A stretch of DNA of 64,000 nucleotides from Lachnospiraceae bacterium (GTDB taxonomy: Bacteria > Bacillota > Clostridia > Lachnospirales > Lachnospiraceae): assembly GCA_017618075.1 (NCBI GenBank), contig JAFZUY010000025.1, positions 62,001 through 126,000 on the forward strand. The letters are read 5' to 3'. Within the stretch, counting starts at the first letter, position 1. Each line of letters begins with the position of its first letter. Both the position numbers and the translations under genes were made by a program. This document shows, in pieces, positions 45,689 to 58,306 of the stretch. The notes beneath the pieces are model-generated. The model saw only the letters and a program-made list of their open reading frames with translations. It ran no database searches and was not told the origin of the DNA.

Positions 45689-45919
45689 TTAAACGATGTA
45701 AGGTGCAAGTACCTTTAATACCTCGTCGCAATCATTCTCGGCATGAATGTTAAGCTCGATGTTCTTAGATAAGTCAAGGGAGAAAATACCCATGATTGAC
45801 TTAGCATCGATTACATATCTTCCGGATACAAGATCGAAATCATAATCAAATTTAGTAATATCATTAACAAATGCTTTTACCTTATCGATTGAGTTTAAAG
45901 AAATTGTAACTGTCTTCAT
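45689..45919 (-). CDS. HPr-like protein lacking the PTS phosphorylatable histidine
   Basis: 76 residues with the HPr fold. The regulatory serine region AKSIMGIFSLDL (S41) matches Ser46 of HPr, the HPrK site. The catalytic GIHARPA segment is replaced by SIDKVKA, with Asp at the His15 position, so it cannot carry PTS phosphate. This resembles Bacillus Crh, a regulatory paralogue acting with CcpA, but is not a clear Crh orthologue. AGGAGG and a good minus-strand promoter (45976-46004) show it is a stand-alone gene. Confidence 0.85.
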   Translation of the reverse strand: MKTVTISLNSIDKVKAFVNDITKFDYDFDLVSGRYVIDAKSIMGIFSLDLSKNIELNIHAENDCDEVLKVLAPYIV

Positions 45920-45975
45920 GTTGAATAACCTCCTTTATACTGTTTCTACCTGTGATTATTTCCAATCACGAGTTT

Positions 45976-46004
45976 ATAATATGGTATATGGAAAGAAAAG
46001 TCAA
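45976..46004 (-). promoter_or_regulatory. Promoter of the HPr-like gene (minus strand)
   Basis: Read on the minus strand: TTGACT, a 17-base spacer, TATTAT, about 57 bases before the start codon. Confidence 0.75.
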
Positions 46005-46037
46005 TTACAAAAAGTGCCGAAAATAAAGGGTCAAAAA

Positions 46038-47402
46038 ATGAGAACTATAGCATTTCATAACCTAGGCTGTAAGGTGAATTCATACGAGACGGATGCAATG
46101 GCACAAAAATGTATCGAAAAAGGATACAAAATTGTCGACTTTGAACAAAAAAGTGACATTTATGTGGTAAATACATGCTCCGTAACAAACATTGCAGACC
46201 GAAAAAGTCGTCAAATGTTACATAAAGCCAAAAAACAAAATCCCGATTCCGTAGTGGTTGCGGTGGGCTGTTTCGTGCAGGCAAATCCCGAAGAAGCAGC
46301 CAGGGACGAAGCTATCGATTTAATAGTCGGCAACAACAAGAAGAAGGATTTGTTTGAAATTCTCGAAGAGTATTTAAAACAAAAAAACGACAGCAAGGAT
46401 TTGCAGGGTACTACAATCACGGATGTACATCACTGCGATTATGAAGAGTTAAAAATCAACAAGAGCGAAGAGCATTCGCGTGTATTCGTAAAGATTCAGG
46501 ACGGGTGCGACAGATACTGTACATACTGCATTATTCCGTATGTCAGAGGCAATTTAAGATCGAGAAAACCCGAAGATGTGGTAAGAGAGATTGAAGAAAT
46601 AGCCGCTAACGGCTACAGAGAAGTGGTTATCACCGGAATTCATCTCTCGTCCTACGGAAAGGACTTCCTAAAAGACGGAAAACCCTCTCTGGACTACACC
46701 GGTAATGCCGATTATTTAATAGACCTCCTAAAAGATATAAACGAAATCGAAGGCATAGACAGAATAAGAATCGGTTCATTTGAGCCGATGATTCTCTCCG
46801 AAGATTTTGTTGCGAAGTTAAGTAAGATATCAAAACTTTGCCCGCATTTTCATATATCACTTCAGTCAGGGTGTGACACCGTGCTTAAGCGCATGAACAG
46901 ACATTATAATACCGAGCAGTTTTATGAGAAAACGGTTCTTTTACGAGAGTATTTCCCCGGCTGTGCATTAACAACAGATGTTATAGTAGGTTTCCCGGGC
47001 GAGACGGAAGAGGAATTCAGGGAAACTTACGAATACCTAACGAAGATTAAATTCTTCGAAACGCATATCTTCCCTTACTCAAGAAGAAAAGGCACTGTTG
47101 CAGACAGAATGCCCGGTCAGCTTACAATGAATGAGAAAAAGGAACGTGTATCCAAACTTCTTGAGCTTGATGCTAAACTTTCGAGAGAATACAGGGAAAG
47201 CAAGCTTAATGCCACTGACAACATCATCATTGAGGAAATTAAAAACATAGACGGAAAAAATTATTATGTCGGCCACACACCTGAATATGTTATGGTGGCA
47301 CTTAAGGAAGACGAGGCACTAAGTAAATTAGTCGGTCGGACAGTAAAAGTTAAGCTTGATAAAATGCTTACCGATGAAGTGGTAATTGGAGAAAAACTAT
47401 GA
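46038..47402 (+). CDS. mtaB: tRNA t6A37 methylthiotransferase MtaB
   Basis: About 454 residues: the UPF0004 domain with Cys ligands (HNLGCKVNSYETDAM, NTCSVTNIADRKSRQ, VGCFVQ), the radical SAM domain with CDRYCTYC, and a C-terminal TRAM-like domain. MtaB converts t6A to ms2t6A at tRNA position 37. ATG 46038 matches the family start; the frame extends upstream without homology and overlaps the HPr-like gene's promoter. It overlaps the next gene by four bases. Confidence 0.95.
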   Translation: MRTIAFHNLGCKVNSYETDAMAQKCIEKGYKIVDFEQKSDIYVVNTCSVTNIADRKSRQMLHKAKKQNPDSVVVAVGCFVQANPEEAARDEAIDLIVGNNKKKDLFEILEEYLKQKNDSKDLQGTTITDVHHCDYEELKINKSEEHSRVFVKIQDGCDRYCTYCIIPYVRGNLRSRKPEDVVREIEEIAANGYREVVITGIHLSSYGKDFLKDGKPSLDYTGNADYLIDLLKDINEIEGIDRIRIGSFEPMILSEDFVAKLSKISKLCPHFHISLQSGCDTVLKRMNRHYNTEQFYEKTVLLREYFPGCALTTDVIVGFPGETEEEFRETYEYLTKIKFFETHIFPYSRRKGTVADRMPGQLTMNEKKERVSKLLELDAKLSREYRESKLNATDNIIIEEIKNIDGKNYYVGHTPEYVMVALKEDEALSKLVGRTVKVKLDKMLTDEVVIGEKL

Positions 47403-47707
47403 AATATTCCAAAGATGAAGCCTTGGATGAAATCATGAAACGAGGCAAAATAATTAAAAAGAAACATGATAAAAGAAACACAGTCATTCTGTCTTCTGCG
47501 ACCGCTTTGTCGGCATTTCTTCTTGTAATCACAGTCAGCATTTTTGCGGGCGGCGGAAGTGCGGGGACATATTCGGCTTATGGTTCTTTTGTGCTTAACA
47601 ACGATTCCATTCAGTATGTAGTGGAAGCACTGGCAACGTTTTTATTCGGATCTCTTATAACGGTTGTTATATACAGAATCCGCAATTCGAGATATACCAA
47701 GAGATAA
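47399..47707 (+). CDS. Small two-helix membrane protein, copy 1 of a local family
   Basis: 102 residues. A charged, cytoplasmic N-terminus (MKYSKDEALDEIMKRGKII, then KKKHDKR), a first membrane helix (about 29-50), an outside loop with GTYSAYGSFVL, a second helix (about 65-92) and a basic tail. It is clearly paralogous to the protein at 51519 (same start, same helix layout, shared SAYGSF). It overlaps mtaB by four bases and lies 13 bases before a sigma factor gene, so it could serve as its membrane anchor or anti-sigma factor; this is inference. No family recognised. Confidence 0.8.
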   Translation: MKYSKDEALDEIMKRGKIIKKKHDKRNTVILSSATALSAFLLVITVSIFAGGGSAGTYSAYGSFVLNNDSIQYVVEALATFLFGSLITVVIYRIRNSRYTKR

Positions 47708-47720
47708 GGCGGAGTAAGTT

Positions 47721-48299
47721 ATGCCCGAAACAGACGGACAACTTTATTTAAAATACGTAAAAGAGAACGATACCGAAGCCTTTCGACAGGTATATGAGAA
47801 ATACCGCGACTCTTTGATTCTTTTCTTAAACGGAATTGTCGGAAATATCGATGATGCGGAAGAACTGATGATGGATACTTTTGCAATCCTTTCATCGAGA
47901 ACGGTCAGGTACAAGGAAAAAGAGGAAGCAGGCTTTAAGACATGGCTTTACGCGATAGCGAAAAACCGTGCAAAAATGTTCTTAAGGAAACACAAAACCA
48001 TGTTTCAGCTTCCCGAAGACGACGAGATGAATTCGGAAGAATTATCTGATAATACAGATGCATCACCTGAAGAATCGCTCATAAAAGAGGAGCAAAACAA
48101 GGAACTCTATACGGCGCTTGAGAGTCTGGATTCGGACACAAGGCAGGTAATATACTTAATTTATTTTGAAGGTCTAAAACCGCCCGAAATAAGCCGTATC
48201 ATGAAGAAAAACATCAAACAGATATACAATATGACAGCACGAGGAAAGACCGCACTAAAAGATACTTTGGAAAGGAGGGGATATTCATGGGATATGTAA
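47721..48299 (+). CDS. ECF-like sigma-70 family sigma factor
   Basis: 192 residues. Region 2 includes FRQVYEKYRDSLILFLNG, DAEELMMDTFAILSSR and FKTWLYAIAKNRAKMFLRK. A short acidic linker follows, then region 4 with a helix-turn-helix (LDSDTRQVIYLIYFEGLKPPEIS). The architecture is that of group 4 (ECF) sigma factors. Upstream is a 102-residue membrane protein and downstream are a 38-residue membrane peptide, a polytopic membrane protein and a PrsW-like protease, an arrangement suggesting membrane-controlled release of the sigma factor. SD GGCGGAG before the ATG. Confidence 0.9.
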   Translation: MPETDGQLYLKYVKENDTEAFRQVYEKYRDSLILFLNGIVGNIDDAEELMMDTFAILSSRTVRYKEKEEAGFKTWLYAIAKNRAKMFLRKHKTMFQLPEDDEMNSEELSDNTDASPEESLIKEEQNKELYTALESLDSDTRQVIYLIYFEGLKPPEISRIMKKNIKQIYNMTARGKTALKDTLERRGYSWDM

Positions 48300-48403
48300 T
48301 AGTCGGGATAGCCGCATTTTTGCTTGGAATATCCCTCACACTTCTTTGTCTGCATTTAAGAGAAACAAGAAAAAACGATTTTGAAGAATCGGAGAAAAAA
48401 TGA
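48287..48403 (+). CDS. 38-residue single-helix membrane peptide
   Basis: Starts at ATG 48287, six bases after an excellent SD (AAAGGAGGGG, 48271-48280), and overlaps the end of the sigma factor gene by 13 bases in another frame. It encodes one hydrophobic helix (VIVGIAAFLLGISLTLLCLH) followed by a charged tail (RETRKNDFEESEKK). Its TGA overlaps the ATG of the next gene (48400). Strong SD, start-stop overlap and topology support a real gene. It may tether or regulate the sigma factor, or assist the downstream membrane proteins; its function is unknown. Confidence 0.75.
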   Translation: MGYVIVGIAAFLLGISLTLLCLHLRETRKNDFEESEKK

Positions 48404-49206
48404 GTTTTGAAACCGTATTTGGAAATATAATTTCAATACTGTCGTTAATCGTTACCGTTTCAATAATCATTTTGTCGGTAAGAAAACTGACGGAAACCAA
48501 GAACAAAGTTCTTTCCGTCTTTTTTACGTTTGCAATGGTCAGTTATTTTATGAGCGAAGTTTATTACTTTGCTTATAATTTTTTAATACCCGATACAAGA
48601 ATGCCCTTTGCGGCCAATGAAATCGCCGAAGCATCTATGATTCTTTTGCTTTGCGCCGTTCTTGAAACGACACTCGGCAAAGAGAAAAAAATAAACATTC
48701 CTGCATTCATCTTTTCGACAGTTTTTATCGGAATCAATATTGTTTTATGGATTTTCTGGTCAGACGAATGGATTAAGAATATCTTATTCGGCCTGCCGTA
48801 CATTTATTTTCTGTATCTGTTAATTAAGGGTGTAACCAAAACAAAGGCAGCTTCGGGCAAGGAACTTATTATAGCAGCGGTTTTAAGTTTCGTTTCACTC
48901 ACGGGAGAGGCGATTGCGTTTGCAACGCAGGATACTTTCGGACCGACAGTTGAGATATGCTGTTATCCTTTCATGTACCTTCTCTGGATATTTATCCTCG
49001 TAAAAGTAATAAAATCCCTTAGAAAAGAAAAAGCAAACCAAAGCGAGTCAATATACTTGTCTTTCACGCTGCATATCTGGACCATGCTCTTAATGTTTAT
49101 GAGCGCAGATATCTTTTATAATATCGCGAACATTATGTATATAATTGTTCTGCTTTTAATGTATCTTGCATTTAAAAAGGAGTTATCAGAAGATGATATA
49201 CGCTGA
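48400..49206 (+). CDS. Polytopic membrane protein (about eight helices), sigma-factor operon
   Basis: 268 residues with about eight hydrophobic segments and short loops. The layout resembles 7TM/8TM sensor-like integral membrane proteins, but no known signature is visible. It starts on the stop codon of the 38-residue peptide and overlaps the start of the PrsW-like gene by 14 bases, so it is certainly part of this operon. It may sense the signal that triggers the protease or sigma factor; this is inference. Confidence 0.7.
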   Translation: MSFETVFGNIISILSLIVTVSIIILSVRKLTETKNKVLSVFFTFAMVSYFMSEVYYFAYNFLIPDTRMPFAANEIAEASMILLLCAVLETTLGKEKKINIPAFIFSTVFIGINIVLWIFWSDEWIKNILFGLPYIYFLYLLIKGVTKTKAASGKELIIAAVLSFVSLTGEAIAFATQDTFGPTVEICCYPFMYLLWIFILVKVIKSLRKEKANQSESIYLSFTLHIWTMLLMFMSADIFYNIANIMYIIVLLLMYLAFKKELSEDDIR

Positions 49207-49837
49207 GAATATTTTAATCTGCATAGCGGTGCCTCTTGTGATAGCTTTGATGTTCTTAAGAGGCGGCGGAAGAAAATTCGTTATAACCTTCCTGCTTGGA
49301 ATGGTTGTCTGCCTGCTTTCCGCATATATGAGCGGATTCTGTCAGAATGTATTTGATTTAAGTGCGGAAGAAACGTCCGTCTTCATATCGCCTATTACGG
49401 AAGAGATAATGAAGCTGCTTCCGATTATGTTCTATCTCTACATCATTGAGACCAAGGGCGAAGAGATATTGTTTGTATCGGTCGGAATCGGTGCCGGATT
49501 TGCGACTTTTGAGAACGCATGCCATATCTTATCAAGCGGATCTCAAAGCCTTTATTACATTCTCATAAGAGGCGCAGCAGTAGGTGTAATGCATCTTGTA
49601 ACAATGGTTGTGCTCTCAATGGGTCTTAACCTCCTAAAAGATTACAAAACGTTCTCACTCGCCGGCATCCTCGGAGCGCTTTCGCTCGCCATGACGGTGC
49701 ATGCTCTCTATAACCTTCTGGTATCAAGACCGGGAGCATCCACATATATCGGATATGCATTTCCGCTTATCCTGGCGATTGTTTTCTGGGCTGCAAGATA
49801 TGTTTATCTGTCCCAAAAGGCGGAAAAAACCTCATAA
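49193..49837 (+). CDS. PrsW-like intramembrane metalloprotease
   Basis: About 214 residues with roughly seven membrane helices. PrsW/CPBP-type motifs are present: SPITEEIMKLLP (E70, E71, K74), GAGFATFENACHI, a helix with GVMHLVTM (His) and VHALYNLL (His). In B. subtilis PrsW performs site-1 cleavage of the anti-sigma factor RsiW; placement in an operon with an ECF sigma factor suggests the same kind of role. ATG 49193 follows AAAGGAG; an upstream start inside the previous gene is less likely. Confidence 0.8.
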   Translation: MIYAENILICIAVPLVIALMFLRGGGRKFVITFLLGMVVCLLSAYMSGFCQNVFDLSAEETSVFISPITEEIMKLLPIMFYLYIIETKGEEILFVSVGIGAGFATFENACHILSSGSQSLYYILIRGAAVGVMHLVTMVVLSMGLNLLKDYKTFSLAGILGALSLAMTVHALYNLLVSRPGASTYIGYAFPLILAIVFWAARYVYLSQKAEKTS

Positions 49838-49855: not shown

Positions 49856-51064
49856 TTACATATCCTCGGAGTTCGATTTATGCAAATCAATGATTCGTTC
49901 TTTTGCAGAAATCTTTTTTCTGTTTGGATAGGTATTATTAATATACTTTGACAATTCCTGCGTATTATCTCTTATTCTGGTTACCAGTTCTTGACAAACA
50001 ATTTCTTTCATTCCCGAAGAGACACCCACATATATTAGATCGTCATCAAGAATGTCTTTTCCCTTTCCGGTAACTGAAGTAGTATGCTCTCCCCAATATG
50101 TATCGCTATATGTCAAATCATATGCCGGTGCAAGTCTCCATCCCTGATTTTCTGTATACCGGAAAGAAAAGTTTTTCGTATGGTCATCAATATTGTGCGT
50201 CATTACGTTAAAGCACATGATTTTGAACATCTGTTCCTTGTCTTCGTTATTATCTTTTGTTAATGCTCTTGTCAGTTTCATGAATGTTTCGTAATCACAG
50301 GACGGGGCTCTGAAATCTGCCTCGAGAATTCCTGCAAAGGTTGCTGTGAAAATCTTTTCTCCATTTTGCCTATCAAAACGCTCCGTTTTAAAATATCCTT
50401 CGCAAAGCGATGATTTTACAAGCTGTGTTTCGGTCATTGCAATTCCGCATTTTTTGGCACATAACGAATAATCATATTCTCTTTTGCCGCTAATGTCGGG
50501 ATCTTTTTTTGCAGGAAATTTTACAATCCACTCTTTTCCCTGCTCTGATAAGAATATCTTAGGTCTGGTTCCTCCGCTCGAACCGCCCAATTTGTACAAC
50601 ATATCAATTTGGTCATATGGCTTTGATGAAAGAAGTTCATCACACCCTTTGGCTATTTCATCAAAGTTTAGCTTTGAACCGATAATATCAAAGTCGGAAT
50701 TCTTAGCGGGAACATATTCCAACGCACCCATGCCTGAAGTTCCCACATATGCTAAACGATCTAATGTTGAAATGTTTTCTTTGGTTACTCCTATTGAACT
50801 TAAATATCTGTCTAAGAGAAGTTCTCCCCAACTATCGGGAAGACTGTCGGCAAACACACCGAAAAGACCACCGAAGCGTTCTCTTGAACTTTCGGTGGGA
50901 ACAAAAACTTCGTTTGATAAGGGTAACGAAAAAGGGCTAATGGAGAAACCGGTTTGAATCCACTCCCTGTCGTACTGAAATGCAATTCTCTTATCAATCA
51001 TTTCTGCAAGTGTTCCCACATGCTTGTTTTTATAATAAACATCAAGTGTTTTATTTTTGCTCAT
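49856..51064 (-). CDS. HipA-family serine/threonine kinase toxin
   Basis: A 402-residue HipA-type kinase. N-terminal HipA_N part (MSKNKTLDVYYKNKHVGTL, FSLPLS, FGVFADSLPDSWG), P-loop-like GGSSGGTRPKI, and the catalytic core NVMTHNIDDHTKNFSFRYT (HxxDxxxKN) with DLTYS as the metal-binding segment. E. coli HipA phosphorylates glutamyl-tRNA synthetase and causes persistence. The gene overlaps its antitoxin gene by 14 bases, the standard HipB-HipA order. Confidence 0.92.
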   Translation of the reverse strand: MSKNKTLDVYYKNKHVGTLAEMIDKRIAFQYDREWIQTGFSISPFSLPLSNEVFVPTESSRERFGGLFGVFADSLPDSWGELLLDRYLSSIGVTKENISTLDRLAYVGTSGMGALEYVPAKNSDFDIIGSKLNFDEIAKGCDELLSSKPYDQIDMLYKLGGSSGGTRPKIFLSEQGKEWIVKFPAKKDPDISGKREYDYSLCAKKCGIAMTETQLVKSSLCEGYFKTERFDRQNGEKIFTATFAGILEADFRAPSCDYETFMKLTRALTKDNNEDKEQMFKIMCFNVMTHNIDDHTKNFSFRYTENQGWRLAPAYDLTYSDTYWGEHTTSVTGKGKDILDDDLIYVGVSSGMKEIVCQELVTRIRDNTQELSKYINNTYPNRKKISAKERIIDLHKSNSEDM

Positions 51065-51326
51065 TTATAACCTCCTCAATGCTGTTATATATAGGAGTTG
51101 AAAACAAATTATTTAGTTCACTTGTCAAGCCTAGTTCCATAGAAATCTTTATAAAAGATTCAAGGGAAATCTGTCCGGTTTTTTCGAATTTTCTAAGTGT
51201 TGCGTAGCTTACATTACTTCTTGCTGCCAATTGCTTTTGCGTTATCTTTCGTCTTTTTCGTATGGACTTAATTTTATTTGCCAGTTTGACTGCTACATCA
51301 GATGGTGTTTCGAATATGTAATTCAT
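51051..51326 (-). CDS. HipB-like XRE-family antitoxin/repressor
   Basis: 91 residues with an N-terminal extension and a Cro/C1-type helix-turn-helix (IRKRRKITQKQLAARSNVSY, TLRKFEKTGQISLESF). It is the upstream gene of the HipA kinase and probably neutralises it and represses the pair by binding the inverted repeat at 51345-51396. SD GGAGA before the ATG on the minus strand. Confidence 0.88.
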   Translation of the reverse strand: MNYIFETPSDVAVKLANKIKSIRKRRKITQKQLAARSNVSYATLRKFEKTGQISLESFIKISMELGLTSELNNLFSTPIYNSIEEVINEQK

Positions 51327-51396: not shown

Positions 51397-51463
51397 AATT
51401 TTTTTCGGAAGTATTATTTAAAACTCTTCTCCTCGAACCATATTTCAAAAAATTTTCAAAAAT

Positions 51464-51508
51464 CGTGAGTAAAAATTCCACAAGCTGCAATTAAGTATAT
51501 AGAAGGGG
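51464..51508 (+). repeat. Conserved upstream element, copy 1
   Basis: A ~45-base sequence (starts CGTGAGTAAAAATT, centre CTGCAATTAAGTATATAG) repeated nearly identically at 55615-55658. This copy lies 11 bases before the 102-residue paralogue gene. The sequence similarity continues a little upstream (A-rich) and into the gene. Candidate promoter or operator, possibly recognised by the ECF sigma factor encoded at 47721. Confidence 0.7.
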
Positions 51509-51518
51509 AGAAAAACCT

Positions 51519-51827
51519 ATGAAATATACGAAAGACGAAGCCCTGAATGAAATATATAAAAGGGGCAGAAAAATAAGAGAAAAACATAATAAAAGAATAA
51601 CAGGGGCACTTTCAACCGCAACCGTTATTTCGACATTCATTCTGTTTTTATCAATCAGCATATTTACAGGAAATGCCGTAACCGGAACAAATTCGGCATA
51701 CGGATCGTTCCTCTTACCGACGGAAGTGCTTGGATATGTCATTGTTGCGGTCATTGCGTTTGTTTTGGGCGTAATTATTACGGTAATCGTAAGAAAAAAC
51801 AAAGGAAAAAATAATAACGAGGATTAA
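51519..51827 (+). CDS. Small two-helix membrane protein, copy 2 of a local family
   Basis: 102 residues, same length and layout as the protein at 47399. It has the start MKYTKDEALNEIYKRGRKI, a basic segment, one helix, the loop with TNSAYGSFLL, a second helix and a Lys/Asn tail. It lies right after the conserved upstream element and before an exported InlB-repeat protein gene. SD AAGGGGAG. Possible signal-transducing partner of the sigma factor or of the surface protein; function unknown. Confidence 0.78.
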   Translation: MKYTKDEALNEIYKRGRKIREKHNKRITGALSTATVISTFILFLSISIFTGNAVTGTNSAYGSFLLPTEVLGYVIVAVIAFVLGVIITVIVRKNKGKNNNED

Positions 51828-51839
51828 TAATTTTTATCC

Positions 51840-51868
51840 TTGACTCAAATTAACAAGGAAGGTATTAA
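51840..51868 (+). promoter_or_regulatory. Predicted promoter of the first InlB-repeat surface gene
   Basis: TTGACT, a 17-base spacer, TATTAA, located 32 bases before the ATG at 51901. It suggests the surface gene can be transcribed separately from the 102-residue gene. Confidence 0.5.
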
Positions 51869-51900
51869 AAACGAATATATAACAAATCGGAGGATTGAAG

Positions 51901-54462
51901 ATGGAAAAGAAGATCAAAAAAATGGTAGCATTTATTTTATGTGTCATACTGACTGTCGGTCTGGTAGCTTTTGGTATGCCGCAGACCGCTATTAAGGTTA
52001 AAGCAGAGGAGAATGCACCTGTAAAAAAGATTCAGCTTGGTGCAAGAATACTCATGCCTAAAATGAAAACGGTTGAACATAAAGATTATTATAACTGGGG
52101 TGAAAGAGAAATGGTTATAGAAACATCCGTAGTATATTATGGCAAAGATGGAAAAAACAAATGGCTTGTAATAGGCAATAACGGAACAGGTGCTATTAAT
52201 AAAGATGATAGCAAAGGATATCTGACTTTGCTTGCAGAGAATGCATTGAAGGACAATCAGCAATTTTATGATAAACCCCTTGAATCAAATGCCAATTCCT
52301 ATAAGAATTCTTTGGTGAAGAAAGTAGTTGATGCGTATTATGACAACGAGAAAGATAATAATTTGCCTTATTCTTTATTTACAGAACAAGAAAGAAGTTC
52401 AATAAAAGAAAGAGAATTAGTTGCAGATACTTATTCTGCTCCGACAGAAGATAATAACTATAAATTGTGTAATGGAGTATCAGAAAAAACGTCGGGTTAT
52501 TTATGGCTTTTATCAACCGATGAGGCGGATTTGGTTGGATTAAAGTACAGAAATATAAACAGGTTTTGGTGGCTTCGCTCCCCCGGTCGCAATGTTAATT
52601 TTGCCGCCGAGGTCTATGACGATGGCCTAGTCGATTACGAAGGGTATGATGTAGACTTCAGTGACTGCGTTCGTCCCGCTTTTAATTTAAATCTTGAATC
52701 TTTAATCTTCACATCTGCCGCCGAAGGCGGCAAAATCTCCGGTGCCGTAGGCACCGACGCACTTACGGCTGTAGCTGACTATTCGGGTAACGACTGGAAA
52801 TTAACTCTTATAGACGATGGTTCCGCTAATAGTGTGGGAAATGGTCATCAAAATTTTACTGCTACAAGAACAGATACAGGGAATAAACACGCAGGAGAAA
52901 CTATTTCGATTTCATATAAAAATGCAGCTGTTGGTGCAAGTGAATATGTTTCTGCTATCATAGTTGATTCGGCTGGAAATGTTCTTTATTACGGAAATAT
53001 CGCAGATAAGAGTAGTGGTAATCCTAATGGGAATGTAGACATTAAAATACCTGAAAACTTGAAACCGGGTAATTATAGCGTAAAGATTTTCTCCGAACAA
53101 TGTAATGGCGATAAATTAACTGATTATGCCTCGGCGCTTAGTTCATTTGATATTTCTGTTGTAAAAAAGGATCCTGAAACTGATGATTTTACAGTAACTC
53201 CTCCGAGCAATCTGACATTTGACGGAAATGAGAAAAATGCAATTATAACTATACCTTTTGGTACAGGAAACGTTACGCCGATATATTATGAAGTTACAGA
53301 TACGGGATATACAAAATTAAACTCAGCACCGGTTGAACCGGGAACATATAAAGTTGAACTGGATGTTGAAGAGGGAGATAATTATTTTGCTGCATCAGGA
53401 TTAAGCAAGGATTCATGGACTTTTACAATTAATACAGCAACTTATAGTGTTAAGTATCATACTAACGGCGGAACAATTAATTCGGAAAAATATGCAGAAT
53501 CCTACGAGTATAAAACCGGTGCCTCGCTTCCTGATGATGTTACTAAGGAAGGATATACTTTTAAAGGATGGCATGATAATAAAGAGTTATTGGAAATGCC
53601 TGTAACAGAAATATCCACATCCGAAAAGGGTGATAAAGAATTTTATGCCGCATGGCAGGCTAACAGATATACGGTAATATTCGATGCAAACGGCGGTACG
53701 GGAACGATGGATGATCAAAACCGTACATATGACGATGGAGTTAAACTTACTGAAAATACTTTTACTTACGAAGGTAAATCATTTAACGGTTGGAAAGATG
53801 ATTTGGGAAACCAATATTCAGATAAAGAAAAAACAAATCTTTCGAAAGAGGATAAGGCTACAATAACCCTTTACGCCCAGTGGACTACAGATACTTTTAC
53901 GGTAGTATGGAAAAACTATGACGGTACAGTGCTTGAAACTGATGATGCGGATGATTATGGTACTACTCCGACATATGACGGTGAAACACCCGAAAAGCCT
54001 TCTGATGAACAGTATACTTACACATTTGCAGGCTGGACACCTGAAGTCAGTGCAGTAAAAGGAGCTGCAACATACATAGCTACATATGATAAAACCGAAA
54101 TAGTTAAACCTGAGGAACCTAAAAAAGAAGAACCTCAGGAGCCGACAGAGCCTGAAGTTCCGGAAGAACCTGAAGTGGAAATCCCCGAAAAAGACTGGCT
54201 TGATGATTTAAGACTTGCGCTTCGCATTGCTGACGAACTCGGTGGTGTGCAGACGGTGGAATATAGCGGTGATTTTGCACTCTCATACGATATCATGACC
54301 TACCTTGTGGAGCATCCTTCGATTACGTTCATTTATCATGTAACATACGAGGATGTTGAATATACAATCATTATTCCTGCAGGAAAGGCTGTCTCAAGCC
54401 CCGAGATTCCATGGTACGGACCTTTGTGGCTGCTTGCAAATTACGGCAACGGAAATTATTAG
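51901..54462 (+). CDS. Exported InlB-repeat surface protein with DUF6273 region, copy 1
   Basis: About 853 residues. Signal peptide (about 1-36). Residues ~200-273 contain WWLRSPGR and CVRPAFNLN, typical of DUF6273 domains. A beta-rich spacer is followed by two or three InlB/Flg_new-type repeats (about 515-730; [23 protein letters not shown]), a Pro/Glu-rich linker ([16 protein letters not shown]), and a C-terminal domain (about 762-853; [33 protein letters not shown]) almost identical to that of the protein at 55754. No LPXTG or cell-wall anchoring motif is present; the C-terminal domain might be the attachment or sorting signal. SD CGGAGGA selects ATG 51901. Confidence 0.85.
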
Positions 54463-54469
54463 TAATTAT

Positions 54470-54489
54470 CTTATTCTTTTTTGAATAAG
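54470..54489. terminator. Hairpin after the first surface gene
   Basis: CTTATTC, six T residues in the loop, GAATAAG: a perfect seven-pair stem. Without a clean T-run it is a weak terminator candidate. Confidence 0.4.
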
Positions 54490-54529
54490 TTAATTTATAA
54501 AGATTCATAAAATGAAAGGGGAAAATAGC

Positions 54530-55444
54530 ATGAACATTGTAATTTTAGTTAATAAGGATTTTGAATATGATGGATATAGGGATGGCATAGACAGCAGGAA
54601 TAATTGTACTAAATTAGATTTGGTTTTTGAAGATACAACCACAGGACCGGATAAAATGACTCCATCTCGAATTTACAAATTAGCAGACACTACTATTAAA
54701 GCTACGGAGTATTGTATTAGATATATGTTTCCGAAAGATCAAAATAGTTCAAATTCTGAAGTGAAGTATGGATTATTAAATGATCTTTTGTGCAATAGAA
54801 TTATAGATAAACCGGACTTTATTATTAGCGTAAGTACAAGTGAGTCTACACCTAATAGCCAGGGCGGAAATTCAGAAACTCACAGTGTCAACGGTTGCGT
54901 TTTCTTAGGAAGTCGTTTCTTCGCAAGAGACTGTAGCGATATTGACCGTGACTCTGGAAGTCATTTAGAAGTTATTGAAAAAAGATATATGAGTGAAGAG
55001 ATATATCCGGGGTTTTATAAAGATTTGTCTGATAAAGGAAATAAAGATAGAATTGCTAAAGGAATGGAAAGAGTACCCAATAAACCAGCAGATAATTTGT
55101 TTGTGGATGCGAACGAAAAAAACACCAGCTTGGGAGTAATTAATGTGGTACATTATGATAAATACGAAGAAGCCGATAAAAGAACTTATGACGATTTCAT
55201 AGGAGTGAATTCTTTTAATAATGATGTAATTCCGGTAGGTATAGAAACAACGCATGCAGTTGTAAGAATGGTAGCAGATGAAAATAATAATATACCTGTC
55301 CTTTTTGTATCTCCTATCACTGACAGATACTTGAAATTTGCTGAAGATGTAGATGATCAAAACAGGCAAAACGAAGCAAGTTCATATAATGCCGGTGTCG
55401 TAGTGGCCAACTTGTTGGATTTTATTGCCGATAAATTGCAATAA
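54530..55444 (+). CDS. Possible nucleoside phosphorylase/nucleosidase-superfamily protein
   Basis: About 304 residues, cytoplasmic, no signal peptide. The C-terminal part reads GIETTHAVVRMVAD, IPVLFVSPITDRYLKFAED and YNAGVVVANLLDFIADKL, the same order as the MxxE-alanine helix, the RxISD catalytic-Asp strand and the final helix of MTA/SAH nucleosidases and PNP-type phosphorylases. The N-terminus MNIVILVNKDFE fits a first beta strand. The middle is divergent. AAAGGGG selects ATG 54530. Its A+T-richness and codon use differ from the housekeeping genes and suggest acquisition. I consider the superfamily call tentative and do not infer a substrate. Confidence 0.55.
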   Translation: MNIVILVNKDFEYDGYRDGIDSRNNCTKLDLVFEDTTTGPDKMTPSRIYKLADTTIKATEYCIRYMFPKDQNSSNSEVKYGLLNDLLCNRIIDKPDFIISVSTSESTPNSQGGNSETHSVNGCVFLGSRFFARDCSDIDRDSGSHLEVIEKRYMSEEIYPGFYKDLSDKGNKDRIAKGMERVPNKPADNLFVDANEKNTSLGVINVVHYDKYEEADKRTYDDFIGVNSFNNDVIPVGIETTHAVVRMVADENNNIPVLFVSPITDRYLKFAEDVDDQNRQNEASSYNAGVVVANLLDFIADKLQ

Positions 55445-55548
55445 AAATAATATCCAAACATGAAAAACACACGAAAAAATGATTAAAACACTATATAATT
55501 GGTCATGAAAGTATTTATGTAGAAAACTATTTCTAGCAAAAACACAAA

Positions 55549-55583
55549 GAGCCAAACAATAGCGAAAACTATTGTTTGGCTTT
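55549..55583 (+). terminator. Terminator of the nucleosidase-like gene
   Basis: GCCAAACAATAG, loop CGAAAA, CTATTGTTTGGC, followed by TTTTTA. A similar GTTTGGC hairpin closes the second surface gene. Confidence 0.92.
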
Positions 55584-55614
55584 TTATTAAAAAATTTCTT
55601 AAAATTTCTCAAAA

Positions 55615-55658
55615 ACGTGAGTAAAAATATCACAAACTGCAATTAAGTATATAGAGGG
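55615..55658 (+). repeat. Conserved upstream element, copy 2
   Basis: Near-identical to 51464-51508 (CGTGAGTAAAAAT, CACAA, CTGCAATTAAGTATATAG). Here it is followed by the decayed copy of the 102-residue gene and the second surface protein gene. Confidence 0.7.
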
Positions 55659-55667
55659 ACAAAATTC

Positions 55668-55731
55668 TTGAAAATATAAAAAAGATAGCCATTTAGAAAA
55701 TTTAAAAGTGGCAGAAAAAATCATAAAAGAT
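55668..55731 (+). pseudogene. Remnant of a third copy of the 102-residue membrane protein gene
   Basis: From 55668 the sequence aligns with the first ~75 bases of the gene at 51519, including AAAAG.GGCAGAAAAA, at the same distance from the conserved upstream element. The start is TTG instead of ATG and there are small indels and in-frame stops (TAA, TAG) after four and seven codons. Only the 5' end survives before the ribosome binding site of the surface gene. Confidence 0.65.
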
Positions 55732-55753
55732 ATTCATATGGGAGGATATGAGA

Positions 55754-58306
55754 ATGAAAAAAAGTATTAAACAGGTATTATCGTATATTATAAGTGCAAT
55801 TCTTATTATTGGACTTTTTGCTTTCGTTATGCCTCAGAATGTAATTAAAGCTAAAGCCACCGGAACGAATAAGGCAATTCAAATTGGTCCGGATGTTTTG
55901 GGCGTTGGTGCAAATAATATAGATGGAAAAGCAGCGACAATTTATTATAATTCGTATAAAAAATATGACGATTCTAATATAGATTGGGTATTGAATAATT
56001 CGTGGTATGTTATTGGATATGGCGGAAATGGAGTGGCTTCAGATGATAATACAATGGTACTTTTATCAAAGAATTCGATATTTAATATAAATTATTCATC
56101 AGGTAAATCTAATGCTTATGCTGATAGCAATGCTTCGGAGGTAGCGAAAGCCTTTTATAACGAGCGTTTTTCCTCAATAGAAAAAGAATCAATAGAAAGC
56201 CGTACGCTATTTGGAGGGAGCGGCAATTATGGAATGGAAAATTATGATGAGGATAAAATAAGCGGAAATTCTCTATCAGGTGTAAAGTTGTGGCTTTTAT
56301 CTTCAAAGGAAGCGAATCTGGTTGATAGTGAAATTAGAAAATGCAATGAGGATTGGTATTTGAGATCTCCCGGAAGGCTCGATTTTTTTGCCGGTGGAGT
56401 ATCTTATGATGGAAGTGTTTATAAGGAAGGTTTCCCTGTTGGTTGGGACCCGGCTAATGTCGGATTTCGTCCTGCATTTATTTTGAATAAGTCCTCAGTT
56501 ATTCTTGTTTCAGCTGCGCAAGGGGGAAAAGAATCAGGTAATATTGGTTCATCAGCACTTATGCCGATTTCTGAATACACAAATACAGAATGGAAGGTGA
56601 CTTTACATGATACATCCAGAGATTCTTTTGCTGTATCGAGAATCGGAAACGGAAATATAACTTTAGGAGATAATATAAGTTTTTCGTATGAAAATGCAAA
56701 CGAAGGGGAAAAAGAATTTGTTTCTGCTATTTTGTTTGACTCGAATGATAATGCGGTTTCTTATGGAAGAATAGTGAATGTGACAGATACTTCTTTGTGT
56801 AATGGAACTGCCTCGGTAAAGATTCCGTCTGATTTGATTGAAGGAGAAACATATACATTAAAATTTCTTTCGGAACAATATAATGGGGACAAACTCACAG
56901 ACTTGGCTTCAAAATTTGATGATTCAAGAAATATAGTATTTAAAATCAAAAAAAATCCACAAGTCAGAGATTTTGTTGTATCGACAACAGATAAAATATA
57001 TGATGGAAATGCTTCGGCAGTAAGTGTTAGTGTTGCGACAGATGTTAGCGGAATTGGAACCCCTGTTGTTGAATATTATGACGATAAAGGCAATAAACTT
57101 GATTCGACTCCGATTCAGCCGGGATTATATAAAGTAAAACTTATTATTCCTGAAGGAATAGATTATAATGCAGCCAATTTAGAGGATCCTTTATGGAATT
57201 TTACGATTTTTACGAGAGATTACAATGTGATTCTTAATACAAATGGTGGAAAAATAAATTCGAATGATGTCAAGAGTTATACATATCAAAAGGGAGCAAT
57301 ACTTCCTACAGCAAATGATATTTCAAAGAGGGGGTATGTATTTGACGGTTGGTTTGATAATGAGGAATTAACGGGCTCTGCTATTACAAGTATTACGGTT
57401 TCTGAAAACGGTAATAAGGAATATTTTGCCAAATGGAATCCTAATTCATATAGTGTTAAATTTGATGCAAACGGTGGAAGCGGAACCATGGCTGATATGA
57501 GCCGTAAATATGGTGATAACACAGCACTTACAGCCAATGCTTTCACTTATGACGGACATATATTTTCGGGCTGGAATACACAGGCTGATGGCAATGGAAC
57601 ATCATTTGCAAACGAATCTGCAGATAACCTAATATGCGAAGATAATGTTACAGTAACGCTTTATGCACAATGGGATAGTGTATTTTATAATGTTGCAACT
57701 ACAGATGATGGAAACGGAACAGAAATTGCATCCGCAACTTCAGGCATAAAAGGAACGAACATTACCTTAACAGCAACTCCTAATGAAGGCTACAAGTTTG
57801 CTGGTTGGGAAATTGTATCCGGGGAAGCAAAGATTAAAGATGAAAGTGAAGCTTCAACTATACTATCGATAGGAACTTCGGATGTTGAAGTTAAAGCAAA
57901 CTTCGAAGAAATACCTGACGAACCTGAACCTACAGAACCTGAAGAACCTCAGGAGCCGACAGAGCCAGAAGTTCCCGAAGAACCTGAAGAGCCTGAAATT
58001 CCTGAAAAGGACTGGCTTGATGATTTATGGCTTGCTCTTCGTATAGCAGATGAACTCGGTGGCGCACAGACAGTGGAGTATAGCGGTGATTTTGCACTCT
58101 CGTACGATATCATGACCTACCTTGTCGAGCATCCTTCGATTACGTTTATTTATCACGTGACATACGAGGATGTTGAATATACAATCATTATTCCTGCAGG
58201 AAAGGCTGTTTCAAGCCCCGAGATTCCATGGTACGGACCTTTGTGGCTGCTTGCAAACTACGGTAACGGAAAAGTTCCGCAGGCGCAAAAGGGAACCAAT
58301 GAATAA
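55754..58306 (+). CDS. Exported InlB-repeat surface protein with DUF6273 region, copy 2
   Basis: About 850 residues. Signal peptide (about 1-37), a DUF6273-like part (~179-249; WYLRSPGR, GFRPAFILN), spacer, InlB/Flg_new repeats (~487-640; LNTNGGKIN, FDANGGSGTM, YAQW), a divergent InlB-like repeat (ATPNEGYKFAGWEI), a Pro/Glu-rich linker and the C-terminal domain (~751-850) shared with the protein at 51901, plus a short extra tail. The N-terminal two-thirds is AT-rich and diverged; the C-terminal ~190 bases are almost the same as in copy 1. GGGAGG selects ATG 55754 over 55748. Probably a surface adhesin or binding protein. Confidence 0.85.
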   Translation: MKKSIKQVLSYIISAILIIGLFAFVMPQNVIKAKATGTNKAIQIGPDVLGVGANNIDGKAATIYYNSYKKYDDSNIDWVLNNSWYVIGYGGNGVASDDNTMVLLSKNSIFNINYSSGKSNAYADSNASEVAKAFYNERFSSIEKESIESRTLFGGSGNYGMENYDEDKISGNSLSGVKLWLLSSKEANLVDSEIRKCNEDWYLRSPGRLDFFAGGVSYDGSVYKEGFPVGWDPANVGFRPAFILNKSSVILVSAAQGGKESGNIGSSALMPISEYTNTEWKVTLHDTSRDSFAVSRIGNGNITLGDNISFSYENANEGEKEFVSAILFDSNDNAVSYGRIVNVTDTSLCNGTASVKIPSDLIEGETYTLKFLSEQYNGDKLTDLASKFDDSRNIVFKIKKNPQVRDFVVSTTDKIYDGNASAVSVSVATDVSGIGTPVVEYYDDKGNKLDSTPIQPGLYKVKLIIPEGIDYNAANLEDPLWNFTIFTRDYNVILNTNGGKINSNDVKSYTYQKGAILPTANDISKRGYVFDGWFDNEELTGSAITSITVSENGNKEYFAKWNPNSYSVKFDANGGSGTMADMSRKYGDNTALTANAFTYDGHIFSGWNTQADGNGTSFANESADNLICEDNVTVTLYAQWDSVFYNVATTDDGNGTEIASATSGIKGTNITLTATPNEGYKFAGWEIVSGEAKIKDESEASTILSIGTSDVEVKANFEEIPDEPEPTEPEEPQEPTEPEVPEEPEEPEIPEKDWLDDLWLALRIADELGGAQTVEYSGDFALSYDIMTYLVEHPSITFIYHVTYEDVEYTIIIPAGKAVSSPEIPWYGPLWLLANYGNGKVPQAQKGTNE
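58080..58273 (+). repeat. Near-identical 3' coding block shared with 54263-54456
   Basis: These 194 bases differ at only a few positions from 54263-54456, far fewer than the rest of the two genes. This suggests recent gene conversion or domain exchange. Confidence 0.85.

Follow-up and report, generated by a model that had tools for sequence, protein, structure and literature searches.

A candidate ECF sigma factor module for large surface proteins in a rumen-type Lachnospiraceae bacterium and its relatives

Layout of the locus

The 64,000-nucleotide (nt) stretch of DNA analyzed here, hereinafter the window (Lachnospiraceae bacterium, GenBank assembly GCA_017618075.1, contig JAFZUY010000025.1, positions 62,001 to 126,000 of the forward strand), encodes an extracytoplasmic function (ECF) sigma factor, a PrsW-family intramembrane protease, small membrane proteins of a family that we denote p102, and two large secreted proteins, surf1 and surf2, accompanied by two copies of a promoter-like element. 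The source assembly (2.44 Mb, 54 contigs; G000 in the numbering used below, in which G stands for genomes and L for loci) has Lachnospiraceae as its nearest named relatives, many of them rumen metagenome-assembled genomes. Judging from comparative sequence analysis, these genes belong to a module, shared by this rumen-type gut bacterium and many relatives, that appears to switch large surface proteins on through a private promoter. A p102 gene located behind or overlapping the sigma gene is denoted p102(1), and one located ahead of a large secreted protein is denoted p102(2). The features of the locus, in coordinates of the window, are as follows.

47399-47707, + strand: p102a, 102-amino acid (aa) two-helix membrane protein, paralogue of the gene at 51519
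47721-48299, + strand: ECF sigma factor, 192 aa (Pfam and NCBIfam matches)
48287-48403, + strand: orf38, 38-aa single-helix protein, truncated p102(1) (p102 profile match)
48400-49206, + strand: m268, polytopic membrane protein kept between sigma/p102(1) and PrsW
49193-49837, + strand: PrsW-family intramembrane protease (PF13367, E 9.7e-16)
51466-51494, + strand: promoter-like element 1, core TGAGTAAAA-N11-TGCAATTAA, upstream of p102b
51519-51827, + strand: p102b, the p102(2) of the window, 102-aa two-helix membrane protein (p102 profile, tree)
51901-54462, + strand: surf1, 853-aa secreted protein (Pfam scan)
55618-55646, + strand: promoter-like element 2, second copy of the core
55668-55747, + strand: 5'-terminal fragment of a p102 gene (alignment against shuffles)
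55748-58306, + strand: surf2, 852-aa secreted protein (Pfam scan; start at 55748 or 55754)
54512-55444, + strand: x310, rare unnamed family, downstream of surf1
49856-51326, - strand: HipA/HipB-like pair (HipA_C, 153 bits, and HTH_3 in Pfam)

All the parts named in the initial annotation of this DNA, namely the elements, the intact 102-aa genes, the remnant and the surface genes, are present. The p102a gene is flanked by a radical-SAM open reading frame (ORF; 45918-47402, 4-nt overlap) and by the sigma gene. The start of PrsW was set at the ATG of MIYAEN, the longest ORF beginning at 49166.

The product of the gene at 47721 is an ECF (group 4) sigma factor of about 190 aa that contains only the sigma-2 and sigma-4 regions (Pfam Sigma70_r2, 37.5 bits against a cut-off of 24; Sigma70_r4_2, 37.9 against 25.7), matches the NCBIfam model TIGR02937 (sigma70-ECF) with 86.7 bits against a cut-off of 42.9, and has SigH, SigW and SigE among its best relatives of solved structure. 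The protease belongs to PF13367 (58.3 bits, cut-off 23.5; no NCBIfam match), and its motifs EE..K, GFATFEN, MH and H..YN are invariant in all 15 aligned sequences; the EExxK, FEN and histidine motifs are presumably the catalytic residues. The membrane protein m268, located between the two, matches no Pfam or NCBIfam family above the cut-off and contains no recognizable anti-sigma domain. An RsgI-type N-terminal domain, as expected on the membrane regulator of a SigI/RsgI pair, was found in the Pfam results for neither p102 nor m268.

The p102 proteins, of which 22 sequences were aligned, are about 100 aa long and share a conserved cytoplasmic helix, a YGSF/L loop and two membrane helices, with R15, Y61, G62 and G84 invariant throughout; the N-terminal helix with its invariant arginine is common to p102(1) and p102(2). 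Under the positive-inside rule, positive charges mark the cytoplasmic ends of membrane proteins, and since such charges are found at both ends of p102, the YGSF loop is placed outside. The two intact copies of the window, p102a and p102b, both have 102 aa and are 50-52% identical; the former matches no Pfam family, and the latter has six weak matches, all below the cut-off and none to an anti-sigma domain. The initial annotation took the paralogue at 47399 to tie the surface-gene cassettes to the sigma operon. An intact copy does lie beside the sigma gene, but this position is not ancestral: in the p102 tree, from which a fused ORF (L079 11339) and eight short copies were left out, p102a groups with the 51519 gene of the genus, inside the p102(2) part, and its candidacy as the ancestral sigma neighbor was accordingly rejected. 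The place directly behind the sigma gene is held in the window by orf38, which overlaps the sigma stop codon and matches positions 71-100 of the p102 profile (E 4.8e-5, and 8.5e-7 in a second search), that is, the second membrane helix only. The same short form is found at seven other loci (eight in total), and it looks selected because its first 28 residues are identical to those in L012 despite silent base changes. A reading of x310 or p102 as parts of a defense system was not supported by PADLOC, which yielded no match for x310 and two weak ones for p102.

According to the initial annotation, an entire unit consisting of the element, the small gene and the surface gene had been duplicated, after which one small gene decayed. 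The decayed gene is confirmed: an alignment between the remnant and the 5' end of the gene at 51519 scores 54, a value that none of 1000 dinucleotide shuffles attained (mean 30.0, sd 4.6, maximum 50). The element pair (51442-51506 and 55594-55658) is 85% identical over 65 nt. Duplication of the entire unit is nevertheless demonstrated only in part: along with the promoter, the second copy preserves about 70 nt of the p102 gene, and the surface proteins are about 35% identical in their N-terminal halves. In contrast to these halves, the 3' stretches of the two genes (54178-54455 and 57995-58272; 278 nt) are 92% identical at the DNA level, with the remainder strongly diverged, which points to a later exchange of 3' ends and suggests that the C-terminal domain was recently exchanged. 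In the three closest genomes (L012, L013, L082), a single surface gene follows p102(2), so that the cassette 55594-58306 is missing there; the paired surface outputs envisaged at the outset are not seen at this place in any of the three.

The domains of surf1 include a DUF6273-like region (21.6 bits, below the cut-off of 23.5), List_Bact (InlB) repeats and, at the C-terminus, a domain of about 90 residues with WYGP, here called the WYGP domain; surf2 contains List_Bact and divergent InlB repeats and the same C-terminal domain. DUF6273 domains have been likened to C-type lectins (PMC10743442). The WYGP domain (54187-54456 and 58004-58273 in the window; also in L013 and L082) is followed by LysM in some proteins and is often present in several copies per genome. 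It was rejected as a marker of the system: among 299 genomes of the family, 13 encode it, and only G000 and G319 of these also have p102.

Conservation of the module across genomes

The order sigma, p102(1), polytopic membrane protein, PrsW, promoter, p102(2) and large secreted protein constitutes a conserved unit. When named genomes were searched with the sigma protein, 18 relatives were identified; p102, m268 and PrsW accompany it as a set at 15 of these 18 loci, but not at those of the three most distant sigma relatives (L027-L029). The p102 profile detects members in 16 of 299 genomes of the family and in 8 of 391 genomes of the class; the latter include four other families, in which p102 pairs also occur. 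The initial annotation had called for a check on whether the p102 family accompanies the sigma factor elsewhere. It does: with one to three p102 clusters examined per family genome (G018 and G024 of the genus were also taken in), the sigma gene and PrsW were found in at least one p102 cluster of 15 of the 16 genomes, and in the 16th (G103) the p102 gene stands at the very beginning of the contig. The loci L064-L081 and L083 were picked for holding p102, and only the scan with the sigma protein tests co-occurrence from the other side; furthermore, the loci do not represent independent events because L014/L015, L017/L019, L021/L022 and L024/L025 are close pairs.

Predicted starts place an overlap between p102(1) and the 3' end of the sigma gene in 12 of the 14 full-length cases. 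In many loci, p102(2) runs into the surface gene (gaps of -4 to -35 nt) or directly abuts it. The order varies to some extent: p102(2) is located elsewhere nearby in L014 and L018 and after the surface gene in L067, and some loci have no p102(1). Several sigma/p102/PrsW modules, side by side or divergent, are present in G319 (L065-L067) and G163 (L069), which raises the question of cross-talk.

The check also extended to the association of p102 with surface proteins, and this association was likewise found in other genomes, specifically for p102(2). A large secreted protein starts within 100 nt after p102(2) in 27 of 38 copies, compared with 15 of 285 control ORFs of the same loci; the same rule is satisfied by 0/14 p102(1), 0/3 p102a, 0/8 short copies, 0/37 sigma, 0/37 PrsW and 0/28 m268 genes. 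The rule, which is based on hydropathy rather than on a trained predictor, called for a length of 300 aa or more and for a hydrophobic segment close to a positive charge at the N-terminus, with no further strong internal membrane segment. The eleven misses are L017, L018, L019, L021, L022, L064, L075, L077 and one copy each in L066, L067 and L069; among these, the neighbor in L077 is a 3240-aa ORF rejected by the rule, and in L064 and L075 a long signal-bearing ORF, also rejected, starts about 360-420 nt downstream.

A Pfam scan of eight proteins encoded behind p102(2) outside the window revealed diverse architectures: DUF6273 with LysM (L065), DUF6273 (L066), collagen repeats with CFSR (L072), an FctA pilin-type domain (L064), collagen repeats with weaker fn3 and FG-GAP (L081), InlB repeats with LysM (L013), and fn3, FG-GAP, InlB-type and Ig-like domains (L014); no Pfam domain was found in the protein of L068. 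The partner was initially taken to be a DUF6273/InlB protein. DUF6273 indeed recurs, but the partners also include collagen-like, pilin-like and leucine-rich repeat (LRR) proteins, and the output class comprises adhesin-like surface proteins in general, with DUF6273 as a recurrent member. Because the surface protein varies in this manner (InlB repeats, DUF6273, collagen-like, pilin-like, LRR), the regulator seems to be conserved and the output exchanged.

In the window, the HipA/HipB-like pair sits between PrsW and p102b. The gap between PrsW and p102(2) is 139-140 nt in the closest relatives (L012, L013, L082), and given that these three hold only about 140 nt there, the pair was probably inserted between the regulator and the output promoter.

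The promoter-like element and its targets

Upstream of p102(2), the boxes TGAGTAAA and ATTAA (ATAAA in L020) are found at a single spacing in 15 of 16 near loci, the first box being located 52-91 nt from the start codon; the remaining locus, L026, has a diverged form without the exact core. The element also precedes p102(2) well outside the genus of the window, with a distant form, TGAGTAAAATTTAAGAAAAAGGGTACTAAT, in L076. A weight matrix built from the 15 near loci (L026 left out) scores above all 60 simple letter shuffles of each sequence in 13 of 22 other p102(2) upstream regions (these include L082, which is closely related to the training set; L067 was outside the scan), compared with 0/13 for p102(1) and 1/22 for sigma genes, and the sole scoring sigma upstream region (L079 2618) belongs to a weak sigma match.

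In 31 genomes of the genus, the pattern TGAGTAAAA-N11-TGCAATTAA with up to two mismatches has 25 matches, compared with 12 for the reversed pattern; 15 of the 25 are exact (three in G000, four in G016, five in G022, two in G024 and one in G007). Thus, 14 of the 15 exact sites are in the four genomes that have p102 (G000, G016, G022 and G024); the sigma gene is present in the first three of these, and in G024 the contig ends inside PrsW. Another genome, G018, has the sigma gene, p102 and a site with two mismatches. When the spacing was changed to N13, 13 scattered matches were obtained in the genus (12 with two mismatches, one with one), none of them at the system. In twelve further genomes, chosen for having the system, a slightly wider pattern with at most one mismatch has 33 sites (15 exact; 12 of the 33 are the p102(2) sites themselves) compared with 3 for the reversed pattern. 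Two conserved boxes at a fixed spacing therefore co-occur with the sigma gene, with G007 and G024 as the exceptions, and the element very probably serves the ECF sigma factor 47721 as its promoter, in which we infer that TGAGTAAAA is the -35 region and TGCAATTAA is the -10 region.

The 15 exact sites in the genus precede p102(2) (4), surf2 (1), ORFs with signal-peptide-like starts (4), a 191-194-aa membrane protein (5) and no clear gene (1). The targets with signal-like starts contain LRR_5 in L112, List_Bact in L104 and no family in L117, and the fourth is in L119. The 191-194-aa membrane protein (L102:1591-2172, L099, L113, L114, L116), which had no Pfam family in L102, the one scanned, is the commonest unlinked target in the genus and is found in G007 as well. 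At L108:1501 (G022), the leader downstream of an exact element resembles that of the L104 surface gene, but a corresponding reading frame is missing, as though the promoter had been left without its surface gene.

The 33 sites in the further genomes precede p102(2) (12), a further p102-like gene (1), signal-like or LRR proteins (11, one of which is an LRR fragment without a signal), the sigma gene (2), dCMP/cytidine deaminase-like proteins (2), a small protein with CxxC pairs (2), a LuxR-type regulator (1) and homologues of x310 (2); the p102 gene at the L152 site is that of L023. DUF6273 is found in L166 and in one L178 protein, and just under the cut-off in L165; InlB repeats are present in L153 and LRR in L164. 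The HipA/HipB, deaminase, LuxR, LRR and DUF6273 names are borne out by family scans, and the CxxC-pair protein, zinc-ribbon-like by its look, has no Pfam match. Outside the locus, the majority of targets encode secreted or membrane proteins, and twice the target is the sigma gene itself.

The x310 family is present in 1 of 299 family genomes, and no relative was detected in Pfam, NCBIfam, PADLOC, PDB or PHROG at the thresholds used. In G715 and G716 (L177, L179), two genomes of another group that are closely related to each other, homologues 45% identical to the x310 of the window are located directly behind an element with one mismatch. All three copies identified lie behind the element, that of the window inside the cassette, and this independently points to a regulon defined by the element, although the three may count as a single event.

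Regulation by p102 and alternative explanations

In our interpretation, the locus encodes a self-contained ECF sigma module that turns on surface proteins. Two parts of this explanation are strongly supported by the comparisons above: that the sigma factor 47721, m268 and PrsW form a conserved regulator, and that the element, located ahead of p102(2) and the secreted protein as well as of a few further secreted or membrane proteins, is very probably the promoter read by this sigma factor. As to p102, we propose that these proteins are small two-helix membrane regulators of the sigma factor, acting as anti-sigma factors and/or PrsW substrates. Under this scheme, the sigma factor would be retained at the membrane by p102(1), or in this genus possibly by the duplicate p102a. 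On a signal received through m268, PrsW would cut a p102 protein and thereby release the sigma factor, which would then transcribe p102(2) together with the surface gene, until the p102(2) newly produced shut the response off. The surface gene would be exchangeable cargo, and the cargo locus of the window would have gained a second unit of promoter and surface gene, in which the p102 copy may have decayed because only the promoter was needed. A role of p102 as the restraint is consistent with its presence in all 15 loci of the sigma scan that hold PrsW, with the overlap between p102(1) and the sigma gene and with conservation of the N-terminal helix; a p102 gene under the sigma factor's own promoter is as expected for feedback. 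In Bacillus subtilis, PrsW is the site-1 protease for RsiW, the anti-sigma factor of SigW (PMC3498285). We put the probability of the full explanation, p102 steps included, at roughly 0.55.

Several observations weigh against this explanation. No known anti-sigma domain was matched by p102 in searches of Pfam, NCBIfam and PDB profiles (best PDB match, E 0.22), no class I anti-sigma domain was found in the protein beside the sigma gene, and the cytoplasmic N-terminus of p102 amounts to only about 25-28 residues. All 14 full-length p102(1) sequences form one group in the tree, with a low branch support of 0.505. In eight loci, p102(1) has no N-terminus and only its second helix is conserved, and sigma loci such as L016, L017, L019, L020 and L023-L025 have no p102(1); being shortened in some loci and absent in others, one p102(1) per sigma factor is not a universal arrangement. 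With respect to the element, the number of matches to the reversed pattern in the genus (12, against 25) implies that only exact sites are telling there, 9 of the 22 other p102(2) upstream regions do not score with the matrix, and G007 has an exact site although neither the sigma gene nor p102 was found in it. The deaminase (L170, L176; two related genomes), CxxC-pair (L157, L173; two other genomes) and LuxR-type (L175) targets do not fit a surface regulon. Finally, the same genus contains a lower-scoring sigma relative, L126 (G004:C137:18172-18693), without a p102 match or an exact element.

More tentatively, p102 might be a new class of sigma regulators with two ancient subfamilies of two-helix membrane proteins, the first linked to the sigma factor and the second produced alongside the surface protein that it controls. 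PrsW would read the balance between them, so that the cell would measure the making or export of the adhesin, with the adhesin gene as an exchangeable cassette under a private promoter. We regard this extension as possible rather than probable.

With the roles of sigma/PrsW and the promoter unchanged, p102(2) could instead be a dedicated helper of the surface protein, in its insertion, export or anchoring, such that only p102(1) would regulate the sigma factor. The two subfamilies are indeed separate on the tree, and p102(2) directly precedes the secreted protein in most cases, with overlapping starts in many loci. However, 11 of the 38 copies have no such gene directly after them, and of these L017, L019, L021 and L022 keep the element and the sigma/PrsW neighbors; conversely, several surface genes of the regulon, surf2 included, have the promoter but no p102. 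Given both the copies without a surface gene and the surface genes without a copy, p102 seems to belong more to the regulator than to the surface protein. The helix shared by the two subfamilies and the presence of p102(2) where p102(1) is absent also argue against a helper role, which we consider rather unlikely.

A less probable alternative assigns the inhibition of the sigma factor, by binding it or by receiving the signal, to m268, with p102 proteins as accessory subunits, in the manner of YhdK for YhdL/SigM. The conservation of m268 between sigma and PrsW is compatible with such a role, and YhdK is a known case of a second membrane protein needed for full anti-sigma activity (PMC6827917). 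Nevertheless, no anti-sigma domain is recognizable in m268, the N-terminal helix of p102 is conserved, and in distant loci p102 is kept while the place of m268 is taken by a different or strongly diverged membrane protein.

It is still more doubtful that the element, rather than being a sigma promoter, acts as an operator or as a leader signal in the RNA that these genes share. The conserved block does extend to the ribosome-binding region in close relatives (GTATATAGAAG), but between genera it is mainly the two boxes that are retained; furthermore, they have a fixed spacing in the 15 near sites, the system sites are lost with N13, the distance to the start codon varies, and the element co-occurs with the sigma gene. 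Ordinary tandem duplication of surface genes in coincidental vicinity of sigma/PrsW/p102, with no regulatory link, is scarcely credible: further proteins with the same C-terminal domain in the genome of the window indicate that such genes multiply, but the sigma/PrsW/p102 neighborhood recurs in many genera, p102 pairs are found in four other families of the class, and the element marks unlinked genes.

The proposed module resembles several known systems. It shares an ECF sigma factor and PrsW with SigW-RsiW-PrsW-RasP of B. subtilis, where release by cleavage of a membrane regulator suggests the likely logic here (PMC3498285). In contrast to that system, a protein with a recognizable anti-sigma domain is missing and two-helix proteins of about 102 aa take its place, the cluster itself encodes PrsW along with another membrane protein, the first box is TGAGTAAAA, and one to five matching sites are found per genome, compared with 89 genes for SigW. 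Clostridioides difficile reportedly also has PrsW-dependent ECF factors. In the SigM-YhdL-YhdK system of B. subtilis, the ECF sigma factor SigM is restrained by the joint action of two membrane proteins whose genes adjoin its own (PMC6827917). Here, in contrast, PrsW is in the cluster and one p102 subfamily is encoded with the output gene. SigI-RsgI systems have membrane regulators. In Clostridium thermocellum, such alternative sigma factors control extracellular proteins (PMC4711584). Unlike these, the sigma factor of the window is of the ECF type by NCBIfam, and p102 has no RsgI domain in Pfam. CnrY, a class II anti-sigma factor, is membrane-bound. It binds its sigma factor through a short segment of two helices (PMC7406223), whereas p102 has room for approximately one cytoplasmic helix and contains two membrane helices with the conserved YGSF/YGSL loop. 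We found no description of the module in the literature surveyed on PrsW, ECF sigma factors, DUF6273 and SigI/RsgI, judged by titles and the opening parts of abstracts for a part of it, and none of this literature pairs PrsW with Lachnospiraceae.

To our knowledge, it is mostly an open question by what means Lachnospiraceae of the gut and rumen select the large surface proteins that they display. A module with its own sigma factor, its own protease and a readable promoter would allow the surface proteins under its control in a genome to be listed from sequence alone, and it offers a definite starting point in the search for the signal. If p102 proteins are indeed sigma regulators, they would represent a type of anti-sigma factor that escapes domain searches, as well as a new family of PrsW substrates.

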